Assembly: GCA_025201365.1 (NCBI GenBank)
Contig: JAIXMF010000013.1
Span: forward strand, 434,001-498,000
Origin: Syncephalis plumigaleata
Taxonomy: Eukaryota; Zoopagomycota; Zoopagomycetes; Zoopagales; Piptocephalidaceae
Direction: 5' to 3'
DNA length: 64,000 bases
How positions within the stretch are numbered: the stretch's first letter is position 1; each line of letters opens with the position of its first letter. The notes under the pieces are model-generated. The model saw only the letters and a program-made list of their open reading frames with translations, made no database searches and was not told the DNA's origin. Below, piece after piece: positions 6,161 to 61,326 of this stretch. A program made the position numbers and the translations under genes.

Positions 6161-7192
6161 ATGCCCATCTACTATGATAATAGCGAGCTAGGTGATGATT
6201 GGGAAAAAAACGCCACTACATTGTTTGGCATTCCGTTGCATCCGCTAGGTGAGATGGAAGTCATCTATTATGCTCAACATAATCTCGATATGGGTCTACC
6301 CATCCGGGCCATGGTCGGTATGGAGCGTCAAATCTTCGTTGTAGTTGTTGTCACTTGTTTATTTTCGATTAATATGGTTACCGCTTTGCGTATGCTAATA
6401 CAAAAGCCTCGCGCCATGTCTTCATGGATCTGTGTGTTTCCTCATGCTCTCGGCGCTAGCTGGGGCTATATGTGTTACGTTGCCTTGATATTTGGACATC
6501 TCAATTGCCGCATGATTGTCTGGTATATGGCCGTCGGTGCTAGCCTTTCCGCCGCGAGCAATGGAGGTATAATACTGCAAAAGGCCTACTTGGTATTACT
6601 TCGGCGGCGCTGGGTACTTATCGTCGGTATTGTTCTCACTCTACCTCAGCTGGCCATCTTTGTAATTACATGGTTCTTTTGCCCCGCCGTCCTCCATCCC
6701 GACTACGGCTGTACCTTTTACTACCCTGCCTATCTCCCCTGGATTTGGATGGGTGTCGAGGCACCAAGCTACATTATGTTCTCGTCAATATTCTCCTATG
6801 TAGCCTATAAACAGTATAAAGCGTTCAAGACAGATGTTTGGAAAAGGTTGGCACGGGACGGCATCCTAGTCATGTGCCTAGCGATACTGTGTAAACTTGT
6901 ATGCGGCACCATTGTCGTGGCCAACCTACTGGGTCCTGCATCGCAAATGTTCGTACTCGTCGATTGGTGAGTGGAAAGCACAAATGCTGCTGTTTAACGT
7001 ATACCATCATTAATTGCTAACATCACTGAGTGCAGGTTCATATTGTCGACCATTCTACTCTTGCATTGTTATGATATGCGTAACTCTACCCACATACCAG
7101 ATGCTCCCAAATCAGAGTGTACAGCGCATATTGCCACCAATCATGACATTAATAGTGAATGCGACTTGGTGGTGGCATTTCCAATCGTATGA
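6161..7192 (+). CDS. Seven-transmembrane receptor-like protein A (320 aa)
   Basis: Two exons, 6161-6966 and 7036-7192, with the intron splitting the Trp codon of a conserved Asp-Trp in TM7. Hydrophobic segments lie near residues 58-79, 89-111, 118-145, 151-172, 191-216, 234-256 and 262-283, giving an N-out/C-in GPCR-like topology. An Asn-Ala-Thr glycosylation sequon sits before TM1. The block GCTFYYP..LPWIW.GVEAPS and the motif FSYVAYKQYK after TM5 are shared with the paralogues at 8193 and 15261. I do not recognise a named receptor family; topology suggests a sensor, and the ligand is unknown. Spacing to the next paralogue (1.0 kb, same strand) implies tandem duplication. Confidence 0.85.
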
Positions 7193-8192
7193 ACTGGCAC
7201 AGCATTAGATAACGGCAAATATTATATAGAATACAAAACGATTAAACTGGATTTTAATTAAATAATCATAACACATCAATAATAATAATAATAATGCTGT
7301 TATGAATAAAATACTTTTGAAAAGAAATCGTCATTAATTTGTGATCCTTTCCTAGTGGCTGTCACATGATTCATGGCCAATATGCACGAAGCAAATAGCC
7401 ACATGTGTATGCTTATCTACCATCTCATTAGTCTATCCATCATGCCGTTTTCCTTGGCCAAATGGGAGTGCAGATTGAACCTGAACTCGAGTCGTCTCCA
7501 GTGCGGGTACACACACACAAACTCTGCTTGTCCTACAATAGTTGAGGGATGCATGGATATGCGAGATATCGTGAATGTCATAATTCACCGAGTGACATAT
7601 AAACACGCCAATGCTATGAAATAGAAATACAAAGCTAGCACACTACTACTAATGACAATGGTGATGGTGATAATGGCTTTGAACAACATAGCCCATAGTC
7701 TAATGCGTATAACTATGTACATGTATAAACTTGTGCCTAATGATAGCCTAATGATCTTGAAGGTACTCGATGTTTTATGGAAAGCTATGCACAGAGAGAA
7801 TGACTACGAATGGACTTCGCTGCTGCATGTCTGATAGGCAATTGGCTACACGCAGACACACACGCACGCACGCATTTTACTGGATAGATGATTTTGTACC
7901 ATGCCACGCTTCTAGCTATATAGCCGAATTCCGCCTTAACACCTTGATTAGTTGCGTGAACACATGTCGACACGTAGACTACCATATAAATACCGTCTAC
8001 TAACCTGTATCTTTCGTTAATACTAAATAAAAGCTCAATATCATATCATTATTATAGGTTTCTTCTTTCAGTTTAATTGCTATTCTTAATCTTTTCTTTT
8101 CTTTTCTCTACATAAACACTCAATAACTTCATGTTTGTACAATTATCTATAAGGTAGTGCGGCCTTACCAAAAAAACATTTATCAAGCATCC
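7193..8192 (+). other. Spacer between the tandem 7TM genes
   Basis: No conserved coding region is seen. Small open frames (for example 7373-7624) have no recognisable motif and no paralogue beside the third copy. The left part has AATAAT/AATAAA-rich sequence fitting the 3' end of gene A, and the pyrimidine-rich 8055-8110 stretch precedes gene B. Confidence 0.4.
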
Positions 8193-9264
8193 ATGCCGAT
8201 CAACTATAGCAATGGCGAGTTGGAGGCGGGTTGGGAAAGAAACGCTACGCGGCTGTTCGGTATTCCATTGCATCCGTTAGGCGAGATGGATATGCCTAGT
8301 TTCATGGAGAAAAATGTGAAAGCGAACGATCCGCATCATCCGATTGCAGGAATCGAGCGTCAATTCTTTATTATTATCGTAGTTGGATGGCTGTTCGCCA
8401 CTAACATGCGTATTGCATTCTGGATGATACTCCGTCTACCGCATAACATTACCGGTTGGCTTTGCATGATTCCACCCTTCTTTGGTATCACTTGGGTGTT
8501 ATGCGGAATTATAACGTTACTCTATGATTTTACAAATTGTCGAATTGTCGTTTGGTACTTAGCCATTAGTCTAACGGTATCAACAATTAGTAATAGCGCT
8601 ATTATCTTGCAAAAAGCATATCTAGTGCTGTTCCGACAGCAATGGATTCTAATTGTTGGCATTATCTTCATTATTCCACAGTTAACTATTTTCATTTTTA
8701 CATGGCGCTTCTGTCCCGTCATTTCACATGTGGACTACGGTTGCACCTTCTACTACCCGCCATACTTACCATGGATTTGGGTGGGTGTCGAGGCACCGAG
8801 TTACATCATGTTCTCGTCGATATTCTCCTATGTCGCTTATAAGCAGTACAAATTGTTCGGTTCCGATGTTTGGAGGCGACTTGCGCGTGATGGCATTCTC
8901 GTCATGTGCTCGGCGATATTGTGTAAACTTGTATGCGGCACCATTGTCATCTTTAATCTATTCGATGCATTCTCGGAAATGTTCGTAATAATCGACTGGT
9001 AAGTAAATGACGATTATGGCGACGATAATTATCGCTTTCGCATACTTGGTTAGTTTGTCAAATTTCTAACGAGACTCAAATAGGTTGCTGTCATCCATGA
9101 TCCTGGTGAGGCATTGTAATAATATTCGACATGCAACCGCTTTGTCAAATCGACCTAAAACATCGCACGTACTGCGTCTTACGCATATCACCACCGCTGC
9201 GGATTATCCTATGCGAGAGTATAACCAACTGCAAACAATCAAACAATACGAATCGAGACAATAA
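8193..9264 (+). CDS. Seven-transmembrane receptor-like protein B (328 aa)
   Basis: Paralogue of the 6161 gene. Exons are 8193-8998 and 9084-9264; the first exon is again exactly 806 nt and the intron again splits the TM7 Trp codon. The start at 8193 aligns with the paralogues (Met-Pro-Ile-Asn-Tyr); an in-frame ATG 12 codons upstream is not shared. Seven hydrophobic segments, the Asn-Ala-Thr sequon and the LFGIPLHPLGEMD and GCTFYYPPYLPWIW blocks are conserved. The C-terminal cytoplasmic tail differs from A and C in length and sequence, as expected if coupling or turnover has diverged. Function unknown. Confidence 0.85.
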
Positions 9265-9417
9265 ACTAAATATATTTTTACAAATATTAACTACTATCTG
9301 ATGCTATTGTTTGCTATTCGATCTATCTATATGTATACATTGAATAAATAGTGCTAATATCGACCTCGTGATACTTGAAATTATTCCATTGTTTATTTTC
9401 TCTTGTTCCCTTTAATA

Positions 9418-10833
9418 ATGAGTGCAACTATGGCAAAAACAGCACGCGTTGTAGTATCAACCTCACTGCCACCAGCTGGTAAAGTTCTACTCGACGAGAA
9501 AGCAGCGTAATTACTATACTACACGTTTTATATTTACAATATATTAACTGACATGTAGGAAATATAACTGGGAAGTAATCTATCGAGAAGATGGTGCAAC
9601 AATGCCTAGAAATGAAATATTTGAAGCAATCTCTTCAGGTAATTTATTATTGAGGCGTTATACTGTAAACTATTGACATATAGTGTTTCTTTGAATAGGT
9701 ATAGACGGATTACTATGCGGAAGCGCAAATGTCGTGGATAGTGAACTGTTGGAACGTGCGAGTAAGTGTATACGTCATTGATACGATATTCCTTTAACTA
9801 AAAAGTGATTCTACTTTAGGTAAACAATTAAAGGTAACTGGCAAACTTACAAGGTTATAGCTATCATCATCATTACCATTACTAAGGATATGCCTATTGT
9901 ATAATTAGATAATATCTACGAATAGTGTCGGTTACGATCATATCGATACTGCTTATGCGAAGGAGCATGGCATTCAAGTTGGACACACGCCAGATGTACT
10001 CACCGATGCATGTGCCGATGTCACGGCGGGATTAGCAGTGGCAGCATGTCGTCGATTTGGCGAGGTAACTAGTTAATGAAATGTATATGTGCTATTGTAT
10101 TCATTGCTTTTATTGTGAAATAGGCGATGAAAGCTGTAAAGAATGGTCAAGTAAGTGAATAAGGAATGATACAAGGATTGACATTGCTGACGTATAACTT
10201 CATTGATTAGTGGAATGCTAAGAGTGTAACATGGATGCTAGGTAATTACTAATGAACAATCATTTACACGTCTAACTAATCGATTTGATAGGAATGGATC
10301 TTCGTGGCAAGACACTAGGTGTATTGGGTATGGGACGTATTGGACTAGCAACTGCGAAACGACTAAAAGCATTTGGAATGAATCGTGTCATTTATCATGG
10401 ACGTGCACCACGCCCGAATGCCAGCGAAGTTAATGGCGAGTTTGTCAGTCTTGATCAATTGTTGGAACAATCGGATGTCCTTTGTATCTGTTGTAGTCTA
10501 AACGACAATACGCGGCACATGTTAGGCTACGAGCAATTCTGTCGTATGAAGCCGACATCGGTTGTCGTAAATACGGCACGCGGTGGAATCATCGAACAGG
10601 ATGGTTTGGTGCGTGCACTACAAGAAGGAAAGATTAGTGCGGCTGGTCTCGATGTCACTACACCAGAACCATTGCCTATCGACCATCCATTGCTAAGTCT
10701 TGATAATTGCATTGTATTACCGCATATTGCGAGTGATTCACGGGAGACAGTAGATGCCATGGCGATACTAGCCGTAGAGAATCTTTGTGCTGGACTCTTA
10801 GGGGAATCACTTCCTAAATCAGTACCATTATAA
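9418..10833 (+). CDS. D-2-hydroxyacid dehydrogenase, glyoxylate/hydroxypyruvate reductase type
   Basis: Eight exons: 9418-9506, 9559-9638, 9699-9761, 9820-9853, 9926-10064, 10124-10150, 10211-10241, 10292-10833. NAD(P)-dependent reduction of glyoxylate or hydroxypyruvate is the likely reaction. Visible family marks are SVGYDHID, TPDVLTDACADVTAG, the nucleotide-binding GMGRIG, NTARGGIIEQDGL (substrate Arg), TTPEPLP (catalytic Glu) and LPHIASDS (catalytic His). The fourth exon uses a weak GTTATA donor to keep the SVGYDHID frame, so that junction is less certain. No targeting peptide is obvious. It lies 153 bp downstream of the 7TM gene B. Confidence 0.9.
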
Positions 10834-12718
10834 AATAAATTGCAACATGATTGACAACTGAAATGAAGTGTTCAACCACACGTCAACTAGCTACATTATA
10901 GTAGCACAAATGTTTACCGTTTCATCAAATGACATGTAATAAGAAGTAGTACAGATTAAGAAGGATCGATTCATGTTTATTTGCCATCATTGTTGCATCA
11001 ATAATAGTATAGTGATCATACTGATGTCATTTATTATTATGACATCTACATGACATGTTCATTTGTATGTCATCTATCATTGCTCATTCCATTGTCAATT
11101 GACGTGATCGATACTAATTGCAATCAATCACGACATATCATCGAATGATCCCACAATCATATGGACGTGTCAATGGAGCATGAACATACTCGATGGTACC
11201 AATAGCGTGATACGATGCGCATATCCAATCAATATGATCTATTATCATTATTGATTACGCTGTATAAACCAGCATACTTACGATCTAATAAATCCATTCA
11301 TTCATTTACATACACATGCAATTTACTCTGAATGTTATTCAGATTATTTTCAGTCTTTGCAATGGAAAGGTGTTCCAGCACAACTACATCAAAGTGCCAT
11401 TGCTTCTAAAGGTTAAGAAATGGTGGACAACGAAAAACAACTTATCCGTGATGGTTATCGCTTTTACGTCTAAATACGTATTAACATAACTATTATTTAC
11501 TCATAAAAACAAAAATGCTAATAGCGATAATCGGAAGGAAACCTTGTATAACAACTATGAACTCAGTTAATCCAACTTGTGAAATCGTATTATACTCAGC
11601 GAACATTTATAACGATATACATACATGCGCAAATGTACGAACGAAGAGATGGAAAGGAATAGATTGCAAGTGTAGAACGAGTATTGCTGGATCTATAATG
11701 TAATGCATAATGATAGTATTCTAATGGATCATCCAGTTGTGTTGTGCGTGGTTTAGTCTGGATCGTGAACTTGCTACGTTTGTCGTGGAACAGTTCCACT
11801 TTTGTATTGTCGCCTTCCTTAATTGCGATAAACTCCATAGTAACAGTATTGCTGATTGGTCAGACCAATTAGTTGTGCGATACTGCCAGGCTGAATGATA
11901 CCAGACCGTTTAAAGTCGACACAGGTGACGATCCTATTTTTTATTGTACAAAGTGAATAAATAGAAGCAACTGCAGGATCATCGTTCCCACCATCTCCAT
12001 TGTCGCTATGCAACTACTCTCAGAATTATTCCGCTTTTTTCATTCTCATTCTTTTATTCTTCTTATCGTTTTACGCCTTACGCCTTACGCTTTACAAATA
12101 GTCAGCAATATATATATCAATTAGAAGAACATCGTCATTAAACGTTGTTATTATTGCTATTGCTATTACTGCCACACCAGTTTGCTACAAGTTTATAAAG
12201 AGTAGGTTATCATTGATATTGCGTTACACTGCACATTTACCCGGTATACCCCCTTTTATTTTCTCAAGTCCAATCATCAAAACTATGCAATGTCTGATTT
12301 CTCGTTATCTACGGAGGAGTCCCGTAGTAGTTGTAAGGTTTGGCAATTGATCTGCATCGTAAGAATCAGTGCAAACAAAATGTCGTGCTCTGTTGCCCGT
12401 CTCCTTTTCGTTGTGCATTCTCTTGGTTGGCATTGGAGTTTTGCTGAGTGAATTTTCGGCTACATTGTATTGTTTACATATACCTGTACCTATACGTATA
12501 TATATATATTGTGTATGGTTGTTCGTTCCTCATTCGTATCGTTACCCGTTCTTTTTCTTTGCAATACTTGTCCATAGTAAACAACAGTCACGATTTACGT
12601 GTCAATCATATCATTGTCGCGTTCCTTTGCACGCTTCTCCATAGTATTTCTTTATCACATTTACTGATCTATTTGTTTGAAATTATCAGTAGCAGTAGTA
12701 GTAGTAGTCTCGCTTATC
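10834..12718. other. Intergenic region with only weak small open frames
   Basis: No supported gene. Two overlapping minus-strand open frames (11596-11838 and 11819-12013) have somewhat protein-like composition but no motif, no shared frame and no sensible splice junction. AT-rich spacer fills 10840-11340. The 12640-12718 stretch is the pyrimidine- and CAGTAG-rich leader of the next gene. Confidence 0.4.
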
Positions 12719-13779
12719 ATGCCTGCACCTATAGCTGTTGCTGCCATTGCAGCCGCTGTTATTCTATGTGTTGCCGCTGCCGGTCATTACGCGTATAATC
12801 GATGGATTCGTCCCATTTACTTTAGCGATACTGAACTGGACAAGTATCGACGATCACCCATAGCAAGTAGTCCTCATGAGCAAACGGAAGAAACATCGAA
12901 TGTTGCTGAAACACAAGGAAGCAACATTAATCATTCCTCTCGTGATAGCAATCATAGCGAGAATCGTCCATTATTGATTGCGGAACCAACGACATCAGTT
13001 GATTTGGTGGATTCTTCCGCGGTCAATACAATCCCGGCACGCTATTGAACCCGATTGTAACTCGAATAAGAAATTATATGAATAGACGTGAACCAGAGGA
13101 ACAGCCAGCAGCATTGCCACCACGAACACCGACCGATGCACGAAGAATTACCGTGGTAAGCTATTTATTAAGCTAATACGTAATAATTAGATATACACAT
13201 CTAACAATCACCTGTTTATTTTAATAATAATAATAATAATAATAGCAATCTACTATCGATGGCAATCACAACAATAATGATGATCCCATCTATAGTTCGG
13301 ATACTTCATCATTCAGTTCGGATCATTCATTAGCTGGTTCATCTCCCGCAGGTGCTCAATCCATCTTTAATGTTTCGGAAGGCATGGAAATCATAAATTC
13401 CGGGATTATTTCCATAGAGGAGTTGAACGAGGAACGACTACAAAGGGCCATAGAAGAGTCTGTTTTACTGGATAGTATAGAACAGCAATTGGCAGATCGA
13501 CGTCGTTCCCTTCTTATGCAATCACTGCAAACTGAAGCTATATCGAGCGATGCCATTATTGACAATGCAAATACGCCACACACGCATGCATCGAATGATG
13601 ATGGTGAAGGAGAAGAATTAGAATCTGCTTTTGAAGGTGCATTTTTCAACAATGAGCATCCATCATCATCCTCATCTAGTGCCGATGAAGTTGTAGTCGA
13701 TTCAACTAGTGTTATCGAGGAACAAGCAGAGAGTGCTGGTGTGGCATCCGATGATAGCTGGTCGGATCTTGATGGATAA
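12719..13779 (+). CDS. Single-pass membrane protein with a UIM-like helix
   Basis: Exons about 12719-13155 and 13246-13779. The ATG at 12719 opens an Ala/Val-rich transmembrane segment (residues about 3-24), followed by a Ser/Asn/Glu-rich soluble region of about 300 residues. In the second exon, NEERLQRAIEESVLLDSIEQ resembles a ubiquitin-interacting motif (acidic patch, central Ala, later Ser), followed by a basic QQLADRRRSLL stretch. The C-terminus is very acidic and ends SWSDLDG. One base seems to be missing near 13020, since the reading frame must slip there to continue into the Arg/Pro-rich end of exon 1. Family not recognised; a membrane-tethered ubiquitin-binding adaptor is an inference. 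Confidence 0.6.
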
Positions 13780-15260
13780 GGAAAGCAGCAATATTTACTA
13801 TAAACACTCGTTTTCTTTTCCGCTTTATCACTCCCTCCCTCTTGATTGTTGCTGCATACTATAAATAAATTTTCATGAAAGTAATAGATTGGATCAATTG
13901 TAGAATTGTCGTGTTTAACATGATTGATCGAGTAGATGGGATAAGTCTTTATTAGCGATTGTTAGTGTTTATCTTGATGATCCATATTATCGCTGCTCGT
14001 AAGGGTAAACAAATAAGACAGCATTTGTGAGGACAGTCTTGCACGGGATTAAACATGCATTGCCTATTCAGTTAGTACAGGCCTGTTCACCATTGTCGTA
14101 TAAAACGTAAAGCGATAACAATAGTAGCCAAAACTATCAATTATTGTTTTATACGTATACGCTATATTACTAGTCATTCATATGCTTATTTTATTCATAT
14201 TTGTTAGTGCCAGATATTTGGCTACTGTAGAATAAAGAGTTTACAATAAATGACTAGGAATCAATGGAAGCTAGAAAGAAATGCATCATTATGTTTTGAT
14301 GCTGCATTATTCGAGAGTGATAACAGTAGCGTGCGCTCATACCTTCCTTTCCCCTTTTGTCATGCAGTGATATTGCTTCGTTCATCCCTTCTTGTTTGAT
14401 GTTGCATGTTTGTTTGTCACCAATAGCATTCCTCCAGTGTGCGCGCGTGTGTGTGTATTACTCTCTCAAGCCTGTACAATATTCGGAACGGTCCTCCGTT
14501 GATATCTATTTATCTATTTACTTATCTATCTGTTTGATATTCATAGGATTTAAGAATGACAACAACAATGGAATGAGCTATGTCTACCTTGCTCGTTTAT
14601 CAATATGATGACATTAACGAATGCTAGTATTTCATGCTATTCGTCTAGTCAATTACTCAACTATCATCATCATCATCATCAAATACCGGTTTACCTCAAT
14701 GTGGTTGGCACCTTTAGGAACTTGTGCCTACCATTTGTTTGTGTGCTCCCTTTTTACTACCATTTAGTACAAATTCATGTTTGTGCACATATAGTACACA
14801 GTGGATTAGTTTGTACGCACTTGTTGCCACCACAGGCATTTACGTGTAATGCAATAAAACTAGATTTGTACAGAATACCGGTGAAATAACCGGATTTCCT
14901 CACACGATACAAGTATATCCATTGCATTGGACGACAGTATTCAAAATAGCGAGTATTTATGACGACGAAACGATCCTAACTTTCATCCGTTCGTTCATCC
15001 GTTCGTTCTTTTCTCCTTACCTTCTATATTTTCCGTAACATTTGTTGTAGTTTATCATTAGCACAGCTGGTGCGTGTGTGTCTATCTGTATGTGTGCGCA
15101 TGTTTCGCCGTTCTAGCTTATTGTTCCCTCTTCGATAGCGTTATTTGCTCGCATTATATTACTATTAGTATACTGCCACCTGATAGAGTATAGTTTATTG
15201 CCTATTTACACGGCTTACATACATAGATAAATATAAACACCTCGATTGTACTTTTCATTG
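13780..15260. other. Intergenic region upstream of the third 7TM gene
   Basis: Nothing convincing is encoded. It contains AATAAA-rich 3' flank sequence near 13860, short TATC and CAT runs (near 14505 and 14665) and a GTGCGCGCGTGTGTGTG stretch near 14440. Open frames here are low-complexity. Confidence 0.4.
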
Positions 15261-16256
15261 ATGCCGCTCAATTATGGTGAAAGTGCATTGAAGGACGGGT
15301 GGCAGGTAAATGCGACGCAACTATTCGGCATTTTACTACATCCCGATGGTGAGGTGGATACGTTCAAATTCATGGTCGAGAATGTAAAAATCGACGATCC
15401 AAATCATCCGGTACTCGGGACATGGCGCCAGCTTTTATTTGTCATGATTGTCGTCACGCTATTCGCCTCTAATCTTCCGATTGCACTCCGTATGGTGTTC
15501 AAGCGACCTAAACAGCTGGTCGGCTGGTTCTGTCTGACACCGCCGGTGTTCGCCCTTATATGGGGCTTCTTCTCATCGATAGGTTTGCTATATGAAATGG
15601 CCAACTGTCGTCAGATTGTCTGGCTATTGGCGTTCAGTCTTACCTTGTCATCCATCAGTAATAGCGGTATTATGTTGCAAAAAGCGTACTTGATTATGTT
15701 TCGTCAACGATGGGTGTTAATCGTCGGTATTATTTTCATACTACCACAAATATCCATCTTCATTCTTACCTGGGAGATTTGCCCGGTCACCTACGATGTC
15801 AATCGCGGCTGCACCTTTTACTACCCATACTACTTGCCACTCATCTGGATGGCCGTCGAGGCACCCAGTTGTGTGATGTTCTCGCTGATCTTCTCCTATG
15901 TCGCGTATAAGCAGTACAAATTGTTCGGCTCTGATGTCTGGAAACGGCTGGCCCGTGACGGAATCCTGTTGATGTGCACGGCAATATTGTGTAAACTGTA
16001 TGCGGTACCATTGTCATCTTCAATATATTCGGCGTATCCTCCGAGATGTTTGTCACCGCTGACTGGTAAGTGAAAATACAATTATTTTGACGTTGCAATG
16101 ACTAACAATGTCTATCGCATCTACCATTCAATTGTTAGGCTTATTTCATCGACGATCCTCTATACAATTGTAACAACATGCAGAAGACGACCAGCATGTC
16201 GACTCAGCCGAAAACCTCACATGTGCTTAATCTTTCTCAAATCGCTACCTTCCTAA
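15261..16256 (+). CDS. Seven-transmembrane receptor-like protein C
   Basis: Third paralogue, with exons 15261-16065 and 16139-16256. Exon 1 is 805 nt, exactly one base shorter than the 806 nt of both sisters. The frame slips near 15992, where the sisters read a T more in the segment coding CKLVCGT. The rest of the protein, the splice position inside the Asp-Trp codon and TM7 are intact, so this looks like an assembly deletion or a very recent lesion. Seven hydrophobic segments and the conserved GCTFYYP and FSYVAYKQYK blocks are present. It sits 6 kb from the tandem pair with two unrelated genes between. Ligand unknown. Confidence 0.8.
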
Positions 16257-36355: not shown

Positions 36356-39300
36356 TTATCGTTGCATGCCCGATCGATTTCGGGATGGTCTCGACATCGG
36401 TTGATTACTATTAGTAGTAGTAGTAGGAACCTCGGGAATAGTCCACTTATCGCGGATGACATGTCAGTAGAGAATCGTTTCGTCCTTCGAATGTCGTTAG
36501 AGTAGCTCGGTGGTTGTCCCATCAACTTTGTCTGTTCATCTCGATTGCTTCCTAGTAAGCTTTGTCGTTGAGACTGCCAATTGTCACCCCATACATCACG
36601 ACTACTATTGACGCTACTACGCAGTGATGTTCTTGTTCCACTTGGATTGGCGCCGACATTAATGCTACCGTTGGAACTGCGTGACTTTCGAACAGTGTTC
36701 ATTCCTTGCGGATAGTCGGTGACACTTGGAAGCGTTGCACGTCGCTGCTTGTTTGTCGACGAGATTGTCGGTTGCAAGTAAGTCTTGGGCGACCAACTAC
36801 TACGCTGCTGCTGCTGCTGCTGCAACCTGCCGGGTGATCCTGTGTAGTCAAGATTCGATGGCGGTGAATCACGACGATAACGATAACGACGAGTGTCAAC
36901 ATCGGCATTACCATTGAGGCTCATCGATCTTGTGGGACGACGTTGATATCCTTCTTGTTTTACTAGTATTTATCGTTACTATCCCGACTGACTGACTGAC
37001 TAACTACTATATGTGATATAGATATTATCACTTACCATTTCTACCTGCTGGATTCTCCGTAGCATGAATCTGTCGTGCAGCATCCTTACCGATACGTGCT
37101 AGCATTCTATCCAATTGCGTATAGTAATTCTGTTGATGTTTAGTTAGTGTTCCATAGGGAATAGGTGTTGCTGGCAAGAGTTGGTGGAATGGAAGTTCAC
37201 GCTCTAATCTCGCATTACTGAGCTGTGTCACCGGCTGCTTGGCACGAATGCTACGTCTTTCCATGGCCTCAGCACGGCGTAATCTACCAACTGAATTGCG
37301 TGGTCGTATCAAAGTCACGAATGAACCCCATGGCTTTTCATGATCCAAATCCACGTCATAGAACGGCAATTGTTGCATCAATTCACCGGATGTCAATGGC
37401 ACAATTTTATGCTGCTTTGCGATACGATGCTGTTTATGCTGTGAATCAAGCGTGCCCCATGGTTTTTCGCGATTCAGATTTACATCATAGAACGGCAACT
37501 GATGCATCAATTCACCAGATGCTAACGGAATCATCTTATGTTGCTTATGGCGGAAATCGAATGTACCCCATGGCTTTTCACGATTCAGATTGACATCGTA
37601 GAACGGTAGTTGTTTCATTAGCTGACCAGATGCCGATGGTACTAGTTTGTGTCGTCTAGTACGGCGCTTGTCGTGTGGATCGAGTGTACCCCATGGCTTT
37701 TCATGATCTAAATCCACATCATAGAACGGTAGCTGATGCATCAATTCACTAGATGCTAATGGCATCATCTTATGTTGCTTATGACGGAAATCGAATGTAC
37801 CCCATGGCTTTTCACGATTCAGATTGACATCGTAGAACGGTAGTTGTTTCATTAGCTGACCAGATGCCGATGGTACAAGTTTATGTCGTCTAGTACGCGC
37901 TTGTCGTGTGGATCGAGTGTACCCCAGGTTTTCATGATCCAAATCCACATCATAGAACGGCAGCTGATGCATCAGTTCACCAGATACCAATAAACCCAAT
38001 TCATGCCATTTAGGATACTTTCGATAGTGTTTCTCGCGAGGTATAAATGTACCCCATGGATGTTCCTTCTTCAAATCCACATTATAGAATGGTAAGCCAT
38101 CATTCTGGAATTGTTCGAGTTGACTAAATGTACCCCATGGATGCTCCTCCTCCAAATTGACATCGTAGAATGGCAAGGCATGTTGTAATCGTTCGAATTG
38201 ACCTAGCGTACCCCATGGTTGCTCTTTTCTCAGATCCACATTGCTAAACGGTATTCTTCCGCCAATTGTTTGTTAATCATCTGGTCCGACATCCCCTTTA
38301 ACTCGTGGCGTCTCGCACTCGTCTCCTTCCTAGGCATCGAGTCCTTCGTCGTCGCCCTCAACGCTTGATGTGGACGTCGAATAGATCCAAGTGTACCCCA
38401 TGGCTGCTCCTTTTGTAGGTCCACGTCGTAAAATGGCAATGGATCTTGATATGGTGCCTCATCTTCAATAATATCCGCAGGAATGGAAACTCGCTTAGCT
38501 GCTGATCTTTGTTTGGCCAACATATCAGGTTTGGACCGCCTATGCTTGTGTAAATGACCAAGCAATGCGGTATTTCTCATCGCCAGCTTATGCGTCATGG
38601 CATCAAGCGTGCCATACGGTATTTCCAATGAATCGAAGAATGGTAGTTCATCCCATCCGAACGTTTCCATCCCTTGTATTAGATCCAGGCTAGCATGCAT
38701 CGCGGCATCCTTGGTTGTTTCATGGTTGACCAATCGTCGTTTTCCCGCGTTAGCCGCGAACACGCCTATACCAAAGGAGCAAGCCGAACTGATGGCGGCA
38801 CTTTGACCCTGCGACACAAGCACATCACCTACGTGTTGCTTTTGCGTAAACGTCAATCCTCGCGTATAATTGGGGAAATCCGGATCGATGGCGGCCAACT
38901 GGCTCAATGACCGATTAGGAACTGATGTCAAGTGATGATCGATAACGGGAGCGGCAAGTGGATTCTCGTCCGATACACCGAATGGACTTGGCGAGGATGG
39001 ACTGTCGCTTGCAAGTGATATTGGTACACCAGCACTTGAGGTTGTACTAGGCTGTGCTATCACTCGATTCGGATATCGTACCACCGGGCCTTCCATGACC
39101 TTTGTCGGCGTAGTTAACGAACTACCAGTAGATGCACCAACGTCACTCGGTGTACTCGCTGTCCTTCCTTTGTTAGGTGGTGCAATAAACGGCGAATCTT
39201 CCGGTAAGGTGGGTGACTCCTTGTACGGTGCTTCCGTTCGAACACCGGACATAGCATCTTTTGTCGGTGTTACCACTGGATGTTGCTGCTGCTGTTGTGC

Positions 39301-41323
39301 TTGTTGTTGCCGTGATGGTGATAATGATGAGGATGGTGGTGCTGGTGGTGGTGCTGATTGGGCACTTGCCGTTCCATTTGTAGCTGATGCATGTTCATTA
39401 TGATTCACAGGTGGTATCGTTAACGGTGACTCTTTATGTGATATACGCGACATCACATTCCACCAGTCGATCATTAATGGTTCATTATCAGCGCGGAAGC
39501 ATACGATACGATTTGTGGAGGCACTACCACCGCCACCACTACTACCACCGCCCACACCACCAATGCTGTGCCTGTGGAAGAAGCCTCCCCTCTCATTCTC
39601 GGCAACCGTCCAGGAGAATGGACCCTTTTGCGACATGCCATGCTGTCCAACGAGACACTGATCGAGACGTAGCGAGTATAGCAAGTCGCTATCCGAGTAC
39701 TTGTTCGTCGCAACTGAGGCTGGGAAGCAGTGCAAATAGCCAATGGCCGTAATGACGAGTTGTCCCCTCTTCCAGGTATCGTCGTCGCCCATTTTATACA
39801 TGAGCATTCCTTGTCGTATGGGTTGCACGTGGGCCGAGTCGCGATTCTTGTAATAGACCTGGTCGTTAGCCAATGGCGACGAGGTTGGATCGAATAGACT
39901 GCCGCGTCTATTTTGAATAAACGCCGTCTGGTCATCTTGCTCGCTAATCTCGCTAATAGGTCGACGTATATCAGTGAGACGCGCGCTAGTCTCCGCGCAA
40001 TGTTCACCGTCCCATTGTAGTACACCGATGATCGTTTGCTTTAAGCGATCCACGATATCCGATTCGAATTGGAATAGTGCTTGTTCGCGTTCACGCGTAA
40101 TTTGCTGGAAGAGTGACTCGGTATTTAACTGTCTATCCAATTGCGACAATATACCTAAATAGATATATGGACAGATAAGTAAGCATTATTAATAATAAGC
40201 ATTAGAAGAAGGTAAACTAACCTTGATTAATGATATATGGATCATCCTTTGATGCGGCTACCGACGTATTCTTATTCAGTGTCCTTGACATAATGGAACT
40301 CAATCGACTGACACGTCGACGCGTTTCACGACGCTGCTTGTTCACCGACTTGGCCGAGTCGCCGTGTGATCGTTTCAACTCGTCACGCTTCGTCTCGATC
40401 TCGCCCAGTAGTTGGCGTAGTGTCGGTTGCACTTGATCATTCAAGTAGGCAGCCCGTGCCGAATGATACTCCTCGTGGTAAAGCATGGGTTCGCGTGCCT
40501 TCGTGTATAATTCCTCGATACCACCATGATGCGCAAAATCACTATTGAATGAAATGGTCTTCTTTAGTAGTTTACGACTTTGCGACGCCATATTTTGATC
40601 GGCTGACGCCACAGACGCATACTGCGCGCTAAGTGATTTGATCACCCTTGCGATAAGCGCGAAACGTTCACCGAATAGTTTATGCGGACTAACCACATTG
40701 GGTTCTATGTACACGGTTTGTGAACGCTCCGTCGCACCACTACCATTAGTAATGATGCTATTGTTGTTACCGCTCTTCATCGAGGCCAGCGATGCATTAG
40801 ATGCTAATGGTGTAGTGGTAGCCGTAGTGGTAGCTGTAGTAGCTTGTCGATTTGCCATATTGATAGGTATGGCTGGTGATGGATCGGTGCCTTGCGAGGC
40901 AATCGACATTGTCGATGCATTATCGATGGTACGCTCATGGATTGGCACGGCAGTCGGTAATGTATCACGAGAAAAGGGTGTTCCCCTATTACTACTATTA
41001 TTACTACTATTATTATTGTTTAAGGGACGACGATCATCGTCATCGGCGGTCGCGTCCTCTTCGGCAGTTTCCGGTAGATTTCCCATGGACATGCCCGTAC
41101 CATTCGTGTATTTGTCGTTGCCACCGCCCTTTATTGGTTTGCCAGCTGCCTCGAATGCACCGGCCGCCTTGGCAGCGGCAGTAGTATGCGACTCATTAAC
41201 GCTTACTGCCGAGTCACGCTGACGTTTCAGTGAATTAGCAGTAGCATTGGCCACCACTTCATTAGGATCAATGGTAAAATTTCGTATTTCCGTTTGATTA
41301 GATGATGGTAATGTATCCGTCAT
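36356..41323 (-). CDS. F-BAR plus PH domain protein with a 12-unit LPFYDVDL/PWGTL repeat region
   Basis: Exons about 40222-41323, 37036-40154 and 36356-36967. Residues 1-210 are Asn/Thr/Ser-rich. An F-BAR-like helical region follows (from LFGERFALIARVIKSLSAQYASV to the Arg-rich KQRRETRRRVSRL) and continues after the first intron. A PH domain (about 39.45-39.85 kb) reads RQGMLMYKMGDDDTWKRG and ends in IDWWNVMSR. This order matches Slm1/Slm2-type plasma-membrane adaptors that bind PI(4,5)P2 downstream of TORC2, which is an inference by architecture. The C-terminal third holds about twelve LPFYDVDL-x2-E-x-PWGTL units, then a basic Ser/Arg-rich tail. One-base slips near 38253 (a TT probably read as T, restoring EELPFSNVDL) and near 36500 split the frame. 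Confidence 0.8.
37145..38655 (-). repeat. Coding repeat: LPFYDVDLxxExPWGTL units
   Basis: About twelve units, spaced roughly 20 to 60 residues apart. The core is Leu-Pro-Phe-Tyr-Asp-Val-(Asp/Asn)-Leu, two variable residues, Glu-x-Pro-Trp-Gly-Thr-(Leu/Phe). Linkers are basic and His/Lys-rich; some repeat as longer blocks (RRTRRHKLVPSASGQLMKQ, HKQHKM.PLASGELMHQ). Outer units are diverged (LPFFDSLEIPYGTL, LPFHQLLPATPIPYGTL), while central ones are nearly identical at DNA level, showing recent internal duplication. Confidence 0.9.
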
Positions 41324-46753: not shown

Positions 46754-47127
46754 GAAAAGACCATTGAACACGAACAACAATCATATGAATACAGTAAATG
46801 AATGACTCGTATTAAATAATTGTTATGAAATGATTGTATAATTGTATTATGTTTACATGTTTTCTTGAATGCAATATTTATAAGAAGCAGCAATGGTGAG
46901 CATTTCAATCTAGAGAAATCGGTATTAAGCCAAGAAAAATTTGCTTTACAAAAATGACATTTCAAATCATAATTATAATGGTCAAAATACGACATATTTA
47001 TTCAATAAATGATTGAATGATCTTGTAGATATACTTGTTGTTGTTGTACCAAGGAATAATGACTTGAATGGCATGGACACTAAAGGGTCTTGCATCAATC
47101 CATTCTTGACTTGAATACCTATAATAT
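46754..47127. other. Convergent 3' region between eIF3L and the micro-exon gene
   Basis: AT-rich spacer with no gene. On the minus strand an AATAAA signal lies at 46997-47002, about 130 nt beyond the micro-exon gene stop. On the plus strand ATTAAATAA-type sequence near 46810 fits the eIF3L 3' end. Confidence 0.5.
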
Positions 47128-48440
47128 CTACTTGATGATGTCCTTGTCTTGTCCTGTAATCATAATGGATTAGTATGGGTATGGTTATTGTGGATTATTA
47201 CTTACTGCTTAGAACTATCATTCAATTAATGTAAATTGTATTGTGATTAGTGTATCATAGATGACGGTTGGAATAATTACTTACGTCCTGTCATACACAA
47301 GCATATGTGAATCATGTGTCGTATTGTGATTAGTATCACGTTCATTACAGTCAGCGACATTCACTTACTCTCTATCGTACGAGAATATACGTGCATCGTG
47401 TGCCGTATTAATATCAATGCATCTATACGTTATCATTGGGAATAGTACTTACGCACTGTTATCCACAAATATATGGACATCATGTGCAGTATTATCATTA
47501 GTGCATCGCATATTATTATCGTACATATCGACTTACTTCCTATTATACGCAAACATATGTTGGCCATGTGCCATATTAGCACCTCGGTCATTACGATTGG
47601 AATGATAACTTACTTGCTATTATAGGGGAACACAAGGAAATTATATGTTATAATGTGGTCAGTACCTCGTTCATTACGGTTAGAATAATGACTTACAAAC
47701 TATCATACAGAAACAGACGTGGACCATACGCCATACCATAATTAGTAACCATGTATTACAATCGTTATGATAACTTACGCCCTATCGTATGCAAACATAT
47801 ATTGATCGTGTGCCATACTGTGATTAGTACACTCATTCATCACAACCAGAGTGATAACTTACGCCCTAGCATACAGGATCATTTACCAGAATGTAATTAA
47901 TACACATTTCATTACAGCTAGAGCAATTACTCACTTTCTATTATACGGAAATATAGTGGATCATGTGCCGTATCATAGTTAGTACGCCATTTATTGTCAT
48001 TGGAGTGGTAACTTACACACTGTGGTAGACAGGTATATAGATTGTGTGACAGATTGTGATTAGTACTTGTACACTATGATCAAAATGATACTTACATTCT
48101 TGAAATAGTAGTCACACATATTATTTTGATTTACACTACAGTTAGTATAGTACTTGTTATGGTTAATAAACCAGCTTACGAGCTATTATTAACAAACCAA
48201 TATGTGGAATAAACATTATGGTGTGATTAGCAGTCAAAACAACCATTTAATATACATGAACTTACGAGCTATCGGTAATCATCGGTGACAATGAAACAAT
48301 AGACTACAATTAGTACATCAATTGATAGGATCACGGCCAGACATACCACGACGTTCCAGGACGGGACTAGCTTCAACGGCGACCAGACTGGTGAGAGCGA
48401 CAACGACGACGGCAATAGCGATAACGGCAGAGAACTTCAT
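47128..48440 (-). CDS. Secreted peptide gene built from an array of fourteen micro-exons
   Basis: Exon 1 (48347-48440, 94 nt) encodes a signal peptide (Met-Lys-Phe, then an Ala/Val-rich core), followed by SPVLERR, a Kex2-type dibasic site. Micro-exons follow at 48266-48268, 48180-48182, 48096-48098, 48017-48019, 47935-47937, 47863-47865, 47779-47781, 47697-47699, 47614-47616, 47537-47539, 47453-47455, 47369-47371, 47285-47287 (3 nt each) and 47206-47214 (9 nt). The terminal exon is 47128-47153. Each is bounded by AG and GTAAGT-like sites (GTGAGT once, GTAAGC once), with a CTAAT/CTAAC-like branch site in most introns. Exons total 168 nt, divisible by three. Joining exon 1 straight to the last exon gives ERR-G-QDKDIIK-stop. 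Full inclusion meets a TAA across the fourth and fifth micro-exons, so either the fifth is skipped, that isoform is short, or a base is wrong. Expression is not shown by sequence. Confidence 0.65.
47154..48346 (-). repeat. Tandem array of related introns separated by 3-nt exons
   Basis: Fifteen introns of 78, 83, 81, 76, 79, 69, 81, 79, 80, 74, 81, 81, 81, 70 and 52 nt. Most share a diverged common sequence: GTAAGTTATCATTC-like start, GTAATGAA in the first third, a TACTAATCACA branch region, then GGCACATGATCCACATATGT and a GTATAATAG-like end. Similarity extends through the intron while the exon trinucleotides between copies differ. This suggests duplication of an intron unit followed by constraint on splice sites and free variation of the exons. 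Confidence 0.85.
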
Positions 48441-49414
48441 GTTGATATTGCCTAGTGGAATGGATAAACAGATAAGCTAAGTAGAACGAGAGTAGATAGT
48501 AGAGTAGAGAGGTAGAATAGAGTAGAAGAGCGAGTATGAAGATGACAAGTTGAATATGTCAAAAAGTGCTCGATTTATAGCCAAGATGATGGCGCGAATT
48601 GGACAATACTGCCAACAATACCATCATGGATGCGTATTCCGCCTAATGAACATCATCAACCTGTATTCGTACCATGCCATACAAGTGAGTATAGGATAGT
48701 AGATTCATTCTTTGGCTGATAGTACAAGTCTATTCTAACCGGTATACACGTGGCAATGGCAGATATCAGTATAGTCGAACTATCAATCTACAAGCAGTAG
48801 ACGGTACACGAAGTGAATTAGTACCAATTAGATGGAGGAATACACGGTAACCTGTTTATGTCAACCGGTAATGCATTCCAATAGATATAGGAAAGCAACA
48901 TTGACGTAATTTGCCAGTGTCAACTATCGCATGACTACATTGTCACCTTTGCCTAGAATGTATCGTGTATCATTCCTATCCCACATGAATGTACATCGTA
49001 TGAGCTATTTCTGTTGAATTAGACATGCAACTGGTAAGTGGCATGGTCATTCCATTATCATCGATGTAATGATCAACCGTACTTTGGCATGCTAGTCAAT
49101 ACAGATTAATCATAGATGTATTAGCAATGATAGACATGTAATGAGTATTACATATTTATACTAAATACAAATACAGGGTTTACTCTATACTGAATATGTA
49201 ATACCAATAATTTTGTACCAATGATTGATTAATTAACTCGGACCATTCTATGTTTTCAGGTTAGTATACAGTTTCTTCCTCATCCCGTCTGCTACTCATT
49301 ACAGCTACTACTTATCTATTTATCTACCTATTTATCTATTTATTTATTACTCGTTAACCTATCCTAATATTTGATATTTATTAAACATACGTGCTATTCG
49401 GAATTGATGATAGA
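48441..49414. other. Divergent upstream region of the micro-exon gene and the C1-finger gene
   Basis: Holds the promoter of the micro-exon gene, including a TATA element at 48574-48579. It also holds an AT-rich stretch leading to the giant gene. An upstream exon for the latter cannot be excluded, but none is evident. Confidence 0.4.
48574..48579 (-). promoter_or_regulatory. TATA element of the micro-exon gene
   Basis: TATAAA on the minus strand, 134 nt upstream of the ATG, within an otherwise mixed-composition region. Distance fits a leader of roughly 100 nt. Confidence 0.45.
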
Positions 49415-60559: not shown

Positions 60560-61326
60560 TTACAAATGCTGGTCAAGTTTACCCTTCTCAGCATTTGTTA
60601 GAGCATTGATATTGTTGGCGGCAGCTAGATGGCTCAGGTTAACAACCACAGCACCATTTCGTCGTACTTTCTGAGTGAGTTTACCCTTCTCAATAGTTGT
60701 CAGAGCATTGACATTGTTGGCGGCACTCAAGTGACTAGCATCTACAACGACGGCACCATTTCGTCGTACTTTCTGAGTGAGTTTACCCTTCTCAATAGTT
60801 GTCAGATGCATTGACTATTGTTGGCGGCACTCAAGTGACTGGCGTCAACAACGACGGCACCATTTCGTCGTACCTTCTGAGTGAGATGCCATTATCAACA
60901 TTGGTTGCTGCATTGACATTGTTGAGAGATTTAGATGACTGGCGTCAACAACGACGGCACCATTTCGTCGTACCTTCTGGTTGATAGAGCTATTCTTAGC
61001 AAATGTCGCAGTATTACTATTGTTACGAGCATTTCGACGGCTCATATCAACATTGACTAGACCATCTCGTCGTACCTTCTGAGTGAGATGGCCATTATCG
61101 ACATTTGTCACTGCATTGACATTGTTGAGAAGACTTAGATGACTGGCGTCTACAACAACAGCACCGTTACGACGAACATGCTAGGATAGAATCTTGGTTA
61201 ATTTACTACTATTAATATTATTACATTTGCTACTATTTACCTTGGGTTTGCTGGAAGTGACAATGGAGCGGCACTGGTCATACCCACCATTAGGAGGGTG
61301 GCAACGAGGACGAGGTTAAGTTGCAT
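60560..61326 (-). CDS. Secreted Kex2-type tandem-repeat peptide precursor
   Basis: Exon 1 (61241-61326) encodes a signal peptide (MQLNLVLVATLLMVGMTSA). After one intron, exon 2 (60560-61180) encodes about six repeats of roughly 34 residues. Each carries VRRNGAVVVDASHL, an Asn-rich stretch (NNVNAL) and GKLTQK leading to the next VRR. The repeated Lys-Val-Arg-Arg sites are good Kex2 cleavage points, so the precursor would release similar peptides, as in fungal Kex2-processed repeat proteins and alpha-type pheromone precursors. One unit (VRRDGLVNVDMSRRNARNN) is diverged. The splice phase and two repeat units (near 60815 and 60930) each need a one-base correction. Downstream receptor unknown. Confidence 0.75.
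60570..61180 (-). repeat. Six tandem ~102-bp coding repeats
   Basis: DNA-level tandem repeat underlying the secreted precursor. Plus-strand landmarks ACGGCACCATTTCGTCGTAC and CAAGTGACT recur at about 100-bp spacing. The three units nearest the 3' end are most alike, the fifth from the end (61000-61080) most diverged. Confidence 0.85.

Follow-up and report, generated by a model that had tools for sequence, protein, structure and literature searches.

Several described systems come close to the gene architecture reported here. The micro-exon genes (MEG) of Schistosoma have, according to the accessible part of the source, exons of 6-81 bp (3-81 in its abstract), mostly 15 bp long and 10-20 per gene, and introns of 0.1-5 kb (PMC10526429). 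In the bicycle genes of aphids the internal exons are mostly in phase 2 and a gene has about 17 exons on average, as far as the accessible sections go (PMC9168663). The available portion of a report on Fusarium CYP621A describes a one-nucleotide exon, which is needed for the reading frame of a conserved enzyme and has RNA support (PMC12940212). Recursive splicing and stwintrons involve consecutive splicing reactions, and sequence-similar introns propagate within fungi, as stated in the accessible parts of the respective papers (PMC5126111, PMC9024468, PMC12403724). Serial one-codon exons in fungi were not reported in the literature searched, most subscription papers and all preprints lying outside its scope.

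The array described here was found in Syncephalis plumigaleata, a fungus of the Zoopagales which parasitises other moulds, in a stretch of 64,000 nucleotides (referred to as the window). The genome of this species has been used for sequence binning, according to a published work available in part. Besides the array, the window contains two adjoining ORFs with LPFYDV...PWGT motif repeats on the minus strand (37028-40149; the DNA at 37440-38224 is tandemly repeated), three ORFs on the plus strand (6161-16073) which resemble one another and have several hydrophobic stretches, perhaps a tandem membrane-receptor family, and a 102-base unit repeated in tandem about four times (60576-60979).

The one-codon exon array and its splicing signals

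On the minus strand of the window thirteen exons of three nucleotides and one of nine nucleotides are situated between a first and a last exon. Each of these 14 micro-exons is preceded by AG and followed by GTAAGT, GTAAGC or GTGAGT, and the introns of this copy are 52-83 nt long. Upstream of the array, also on the minus strand, there is a TATA box (TATAAAT, 48573..48579), which was kept in 20 of 20 upstream regions examined, the window copy among them. Exon 1 (48347..48440, 94 nt) encodes the signal-peptide-like sequence MKFSAVIAIAVVVVALTSLVAVEASPVLERR plus one nucleotide and therefore ends in phase 1; by inspection it carries a signal peptide with an RR site. The micro-exons follow in transcript order. 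The first two are both CTC (48266..48268 and 48180..48182), the second being 3-12 nt long in the paralogs. The third is AAT (48096..48098); in most paralogs it is 5 nt long and restores phase 0, while in the window copy phase 1 persists. It is followed by TGT (48017..48019), a Cys position in the family frame, AAA (47935..47937), GGC (47863..47865), GGC (47779..47781) and TTT (47697..47699). The ninth and tenth, CAA (47614..47616) and GAA (47537..47539), belong to units which the closest paralog, L032, does not have. The eleventh, TGC (47453..47455), is again a Cys position in the family frame, and AGA (47369..47371) and GAC (47285..47287) come after it. Micro-exon 14, TTCTAAGCA (47206..47214, 9 nt), contains the phase-0 stop of the family (TTC TAA). 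The last exon starts with 47128..47153, and an AATAAA polyadenylation-like signal was found at 46997..47002. The 3' region contained TTGAATAAA in all seven copies examined there.

The regular chain in the window is far beyond chance. The longest chain of the form [ACT]AG-N3-GT[AG]AG[TC], with a spacing of 55-110 nt, had 13 links. Of 100 dinucleotide shuffles of the whole window, 99 had a longest chain of 0 or 1 and a single one reached 2; shuffling the array region 1000 times never gave more than 1. These results agree with the first-pass annotation of the window in the exon coordinates and trinucleotides, in the chain of AG-exon-donor units (13 links against a maximum of 2 in the 100 whole-window shuffles), in the exon-length sum of 168 nt, which is arithmetically correct, and, by inspection, in the signal-peptide exon with its RR site. 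Its observation that the triplets vary while the splice sites are constant was upheld, as were the spliceosomal signals.

The splicing signals were counted in 20 genes, the window copy included, which contain 547 modelled micro-exons; 490 of these are exactly 3 nt long and 443 are followed by the donor GTAAGT. The acceptors were TAG (370), CAG (154) and AAG (23), and the 20 commonest intron lengths were 61-86 nt. A branch motif, mostly TACTAAY, was present in 414 of the 418 introns examined, and in 248 of these 414 it was located 43 nt before the intron end, the search range covering only 32-58 nt. Between 34 and 3 nt ahead of the acceptor only 7 stray AGs were seen. The search for U1 gave one match, with a canonical 5' end (41 of 334 candidates scored). 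With GT..AG ends, the branch motif and a matching U1, the modelled introns would belong to the U2 type. The U12 search was without a match, but its control was equally silent, so it is uninformative on the minor spliceosome. A hairpin bridging the branch site and the acceptor appeared plausible by eye and was rejected, its folding energies being equal to those of shuffled sequences (paired t = 0.6, 414 introns). Alignment folding of the first 200 of 239 same-length introns gave no structure and no clear paired covariation.

Extent of the family and its reading frame

What the first-pass annotation had described as a gene proved to be one member of a large family, with at least 66 array clusters in the genome, haplotype copies included. 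These clusters were obtained by uniting, by hand, the loci of the DNA search and the listed pattern matches; the grouping covered all DNA-search matches and about 100 of the 751 pattern matches. The DNA search with the window locus gave at least 134 matches (the best 40 of 259 candidates scored), which were grouped into 39 loci, and 28 of these were retrieved whole. A pattern combining a one-codon exon with an intron start had 751 matches in the genome and none in the reversed control. Since this pattern caught 159 of the 492 modelled three-nucleotide exons, the assembly may contain about 2,300 one-codon exons by extrapolation, haplotype copies included. A single gene has up to 47 three-nucleotide exons (30 gene models). 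Many of the listed array clusters adjoin exon-1 sites of the family, as judged by eye and uncounted. Introner-type elements are similar introns scattered over many unrelated genes, with an insertion signature.

With no more than 3 mismatches allowed, 182 sites related to the signal-peptide exon were found in the genome, and none in the reversed control; some of these sites belong to members without arrays. In L059 (C1:23500-25900) and in one gene of L061 the same signal peptide precedes an intron-free coding part, and the mature peptides are quite different; the shared leader appears to serve unlike secreted products. In the intron-free L059, TAAGCA runs straight into a 3' sequence similar to the last exon of the window copy.

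Gene models were made for 30 copies, with an exon scoring blind to the frame itself; once 5-nt exons had been seen, they were penalised as mildly as multiples of three. After exon 1, which ends in phase 1, the usual order is a first micro-exon of 3 nt, a second of 3-12 nt and a next one of 5 nt; the phase-restoring exon is 2 nt instead of 5 nt in L048 and L052, and an extra 6-nt exon is present in L053 and L056. Phase 0 was reached by micro-exon 2-4 in 26 of the 27 models with a 94-nt exon 1, the sole exception being the window copy. An in-frame stop was found in the last micro-exon of 21 of the 30 models (for example TTC TAA GCA, GAA TAA GCA or CCA CGA GAT TAA GCA). In one of these, L038, two bases are missing from exon 1 and the signal peptide is out of frame, so that 20 of the 30 both close and have an intact exon 1.

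This frame differs from the one assumed in the first-pass annotation, which had carried phase 1 through to a terminal QDKDIIK. Full inclusion of the window micro-exons in phase 1 gives a TAA at the junction of micro-exons 4 and 5 (APQL, then stop), therefore the QDKDIIK frame is never reached. Since in the family frame the stop lies already in the last micro-exon, the terminal exon, earlier taken as coding, belongs to the 3' UTR. As assembled, the window copy does not keep the frame, because its micro-exon 3 has 3 nt where most paralogs have 5. Its broken frame is either a true degeneration or the result of an assembly error.

The nine models which do not close in frame were counted against the coding reading. 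In the window copy (L031), L046 and L060 the frame is off from exon 1 or a neighbouring exon, in L037, L042 and L061 the model ends early, and in L039, L054 and L056 a 2-nt exon was called within the array. Failure to close in the window copy and in as many as eight further models would be expected if a burst of introns had shattered old peptide genes and most copies were now pseudogenes, and the existence of intron-free members with the same signal peptide (L059, L061) would fit such a decay as well. We consider this very improbable, since two thirds of the models, 20 of 30, have an intact exon 1 and end in frame, the single bases missing here and there in L038 and L046, compared with their relatives, resemble assembly error, and the paralogs differ by multi-nucleotide, non-synonymous changes, which are described below.

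The coding reading was examined further by triplet statistics on 19 genes, with the window copy shown apart. The presumed haplotype or near copies L033, L039, L040, L050, L055 and L037 were left out, as were L038, L060 and L061, having frame problems or being partial, and L057, for which there was a first-script model only. Among the 449 core triplets of these genes there was not a single stop in phase 0, a count which is partly tied to the odd third-base rule of the one-codon exons (see below). The position composition predicts 18 stops and the overall composition 22; a fairer expectation, with the C-first codons as guide, is about 13, since a final A is rare in T-first codons on other grounds. 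When the joined triplets were read in shifted frames, the +1 frame contained 7 stops in 444 triplets and the +2 frame 33. These values bear on the possibility that the array is a non-coding repeat, the triplets of which are never joined, so that the array leaves as one composite intron and the micro-exons are relics of recursive splice sites. Exon 1 spliced directly to the last exon does keep the frame, and the regular short introns could serve as steps of recursive splicing. Nevertheless, the absence of stops, the phase-restoring exon and the in-frame stop which 21 models have in their last micro-exon speak against a non-coding repeat, and we regard it as most improbable.

Predicted peptide products and divergence of the codons

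The products predicted in the family frame look like small secreted peptides. Thirteen of the 21 closing products have the pattern C...CC...C, which is a further argument against a non-coding repeat; L036 ends in ...RRAKDLPACEWDYNGYCCHSTPGGGFSCWDPRD and L049 in ...VPCEDGFVRMPEFRNKCCKIMEGHNARSTVCAAEE, for example. The remaining eight products have 0, 2 or 3 cysteines. Pfam gave nothing significant, the best value being E = 0.017 in one of 15 members.

The codon set of the one-codon exons is odd: Phe is TTT in 12 of 12 cases, Tyr is TAT in 14 of 14 and Pro is CCT in 38 of 45, and this set differs from that of five ORFs of the window. The third base tracks the first one, T:C being 88:11 in pyrimidine-first codons and C:T 114:46 in purine-first codons, TG-starting codons excluded; after dereplication the values were 64:10 and 89:37, respectively. 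The rule is absent from the five window ORFs. The acceptor base at -3 covaries with the first base of the codon, CAG being commoner before pyrimidines and TAG before purines. The third-base rule could reflect a joint splice-site constraint across three bases, or a templated replacement of codons. Cassette copying was also considered as the source of the codon set; the introns upstream of same-codon exons from different genes were 0.70 alike and those of different-codon exons 0.68, so it is unsupported in its simple form.

The one-codon exons and the introns diverge differently. In four aligned paralog pairs taken together, 47 of 209 one-codon sites differ against 462 of 6691 intron sites (p = 2e-12). 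A triplet excess was found in three of the four pairs: L041/L048 (26/91 one-codon sites, 155/2628 intron sites), L034/L035 (12/30, 97/1080) and L036/L043 (9/64, 134/2046). The window's own and closest pair, L031/L032, is without such an excess (0/24, 76/937). This was counted against the coding reading and would suit a non-coding repeat, while the different divergence of triplets and introns in the pooled pairs opposes it.

In 55 reciprocal unit pairs with similar flanks, 35 of which come from L041/L048 and L036/L043, the triplet was unchanged in 36 and had one change in 6, two in 8 and three in 5. The flanking introns of these pairs were 5.5% apart, a figure lowered by their choice by intron similarity. 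Thus 13 of the 19 changed triplets changed by 2-3 nt, and 16 were non-synonymous. Swaps such as TAT to ATC, GGC to AAT and AAA to GAT were seen between flanks more than 92% identical, while the Cys codon was retained in 8 of 8 unit pairs. Gain or loss of whole units was seen as well; the window copy and L032 differ in this way by two codons, L041 and L048 by at least three.

Several contigs of about 20 kb resemble second haplotypes of larger ones (C164/C362, C186/C362, C129/C223), which suggests a diploid or heterokaryotic strain. Haplotype status is presumed from similarity and contig size. Among the 384 one-codon sites of five presumed haplotype pairs one differs, against 181 of 11,810 intron sites (p = 0.049, weak on its own); the contrast in divergence between these pairs and the four paralog pairs has p = 9e-6. 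In exon 1 the five pairs differ at 16 of 469 sites. L037/L049 is as divergent as the paralogs (3/24 one-codon sites, 64/981 intron sites), and if it is taken as a sixth haplotype pair, the contrast within haplotypes is gone (p = 0.26) and that between haplotypes and paralogs stays (p = 2e-5).

Some annotated proteins contain the one-codon exons. The last 40 residues of P0126 correspond to one-codon exons of L051 in order, with 5 exons omitted; the stretch before them comes only partly from these exons, which was counted against the coding reading. In P0125 the first 72 of 92 residues match L042, with 5 of its 45 exons omitted. Both models string many of the array exons in the family frame, and they may be RNA-based or predictor-based. 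Two further comparisons were counted against the coding reading: of the 71 residues of P0124 only 39 match L048, and intron 1 is read into in P0121 and P0127, which then stop.

The omitted exons might be taken to mean that the array is combinatorial, with each one-codon exon optional and many secreted variants formed per gene. Three-nucleotide exons are frame-neutral by construction, 8 of the 10 exons skipped in P0125 and P0126 have donors other than GTAAGT (GTAGGT, GTGAGT, GTAAAT or GTAAGC), and GTAGG donors follow 23 of 58 Cys codons but only 9 of 403 others. On the other hand, the skipped exons carry donors which a gene predictor would score poorly, and the frame in which free skipping had been proposed was wrong. 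Moreover, most of the codons seem needed, as the unit pairs keep their Cys and the codons are near-identical between the presumed haplotypes. We therefore hold a combinatorial array to be unlikely. The conserved Cys codons, the stop kept in the last micro-exon and the few codon differences between presumed haplotypes suggest that the one-codon exons are mainly included constitutively.

Relatives were searched beyond the array loci. An intron-free retrocopy of the L049 product, this being the one gene tested, was looked for and not found, which was counted against the coding reading; the 150 matches (150 of 170 candidates scored) all lay within the exon-1 end, and among the matches listed none went past residue 47 of 70. 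A profile search (E <= 1) gave 27 proteins from 595 candidates, 17 from Syncephalis, 1 other from NCBI and 9 environmental ones; none of the 27 is named MEG, only names having been compared. In nine JGI or ENA proteins the signal peptide recurs with 42-66% identity, and six of these nine (P0138, P0139, P0141, P0142, P0144 and P0145) read RRG(T/M)S... and then end. The unspliced intron 1 of S. plumigaleata reads RRGMSGRDPIN, like these six protein ends. These environmental proteins, whose signal peptide resembles that of the arrays and six of which are read as if into intron 1, suggest that the family extends beyond this genome.

Proposed model and comparison with known systems

We propose, with a probability of about 0.83, that the arrays are a large family of secreted-peptide genes, whose one-codon exons are normally all joined in phase 0 by the ordinary spliceosome. 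According to this model, exon 1 would provide the signal peptide and the RR cleavage site, and a series of two to four short exons ending with one of 5 or 2 nt would shift phase 1 to phase 0. The 8 to 45 core exons, nearly all of one codon, would then spell the mature peptide, often C...CC...C, and the last micro-exon would give the stop. The introns between one codon and the next, about 60-86 nt long, would be removed by the spliceosome, most likely one by one in order, because a 3-nt exon gives both neighbouring splice sites little space to be bound together. Since each codon sits between similar introns, codons could be gained, lost or replaced whole without a frameshift, and the peptides would diversify under selection. 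The product is most likely a hypervariable secreted peptide acting against the host or competing fungi. A more far-reaching idea, which we put forward only tentatively and rather doubt, is that the spliceosome builds the mature peptide one codon at a time, that one exon per amino acid makes the codon the unit of mutation, and that replacement (perhaps templated from other units), gain and loss of whole codons within a framework of conserved introns drive a hypervariable repertoire. Weak donors after the Cys codons might then allow splicing to choose between disulfide patterns.

If RNA confirms the model, the architecture is extreme: nearly every amino acid of the mature peptide would have its own three-letter exon, and dozens of genes in a single fungus would carry the practical limit of gene fragmentation as far as one exon for each amino acid of an entire mature peptide. 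The family would offer a natural test of the spliceosome on dozens of serial 3-nt exons, which exon-definition models do not predict, and of exon structure as a device of diversification, since the introns stay similar and the codons change by 2-3 bases. Gene finders seem to miss such genes easily, and comparable families have possibly been overlooked in other early-diverging fungi.

The fungal origin of the array and its parallel with schistosome MEGs, both noted in the first-pass annotation, stand. The likeness seen is one of architecture. The exons of the aphid bicycle genes are longer than one codon and their products carry paired CYC motifs; the CYC motif was found in none of 21 array products. 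As far as the accessible text goes, bicycle genes and arrays both have many same-phase micro-exons in fast-evolving putative effectors (PMC9168663), and they differ in that the core exons of the arrays are in phase 0 (26 of 27 models) and consist of one codon each. Like the Schistosoma MEGs, as described in the available sections, the arrays as modelled string together very short exons whose lengths are mostly multiples of three, belong to a parasite and are difficult to annotate automatically; MEG products are secreted, as those predicted here would be (PMC10526429). The modelled exons, 490 of 547 being 3 nt long, would be serial short exons of the MEG type. In contrast to the genes in that partial account, the arrays are fungal, have mostly 3-nt internal exons, up to 47 per gene, and introns of about 60-86 nt; the commonest lengths of 61-86 nt fall short of the 0.1-5 kb of MEG introns. 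Fusarium CYP621A also has an ultra-small exon in a fungal gene, but, in the part of the report available, it is a single micro-exon and no serial array (PMC12940212). In the modelled array introns there is no inner intron interrupting an outer donor, branch site or acceptor. Unlike a stwintron, as described in the accessible parts of its sources, each modelled array intron has its own donor and acceptor, and would leave a codon behind.
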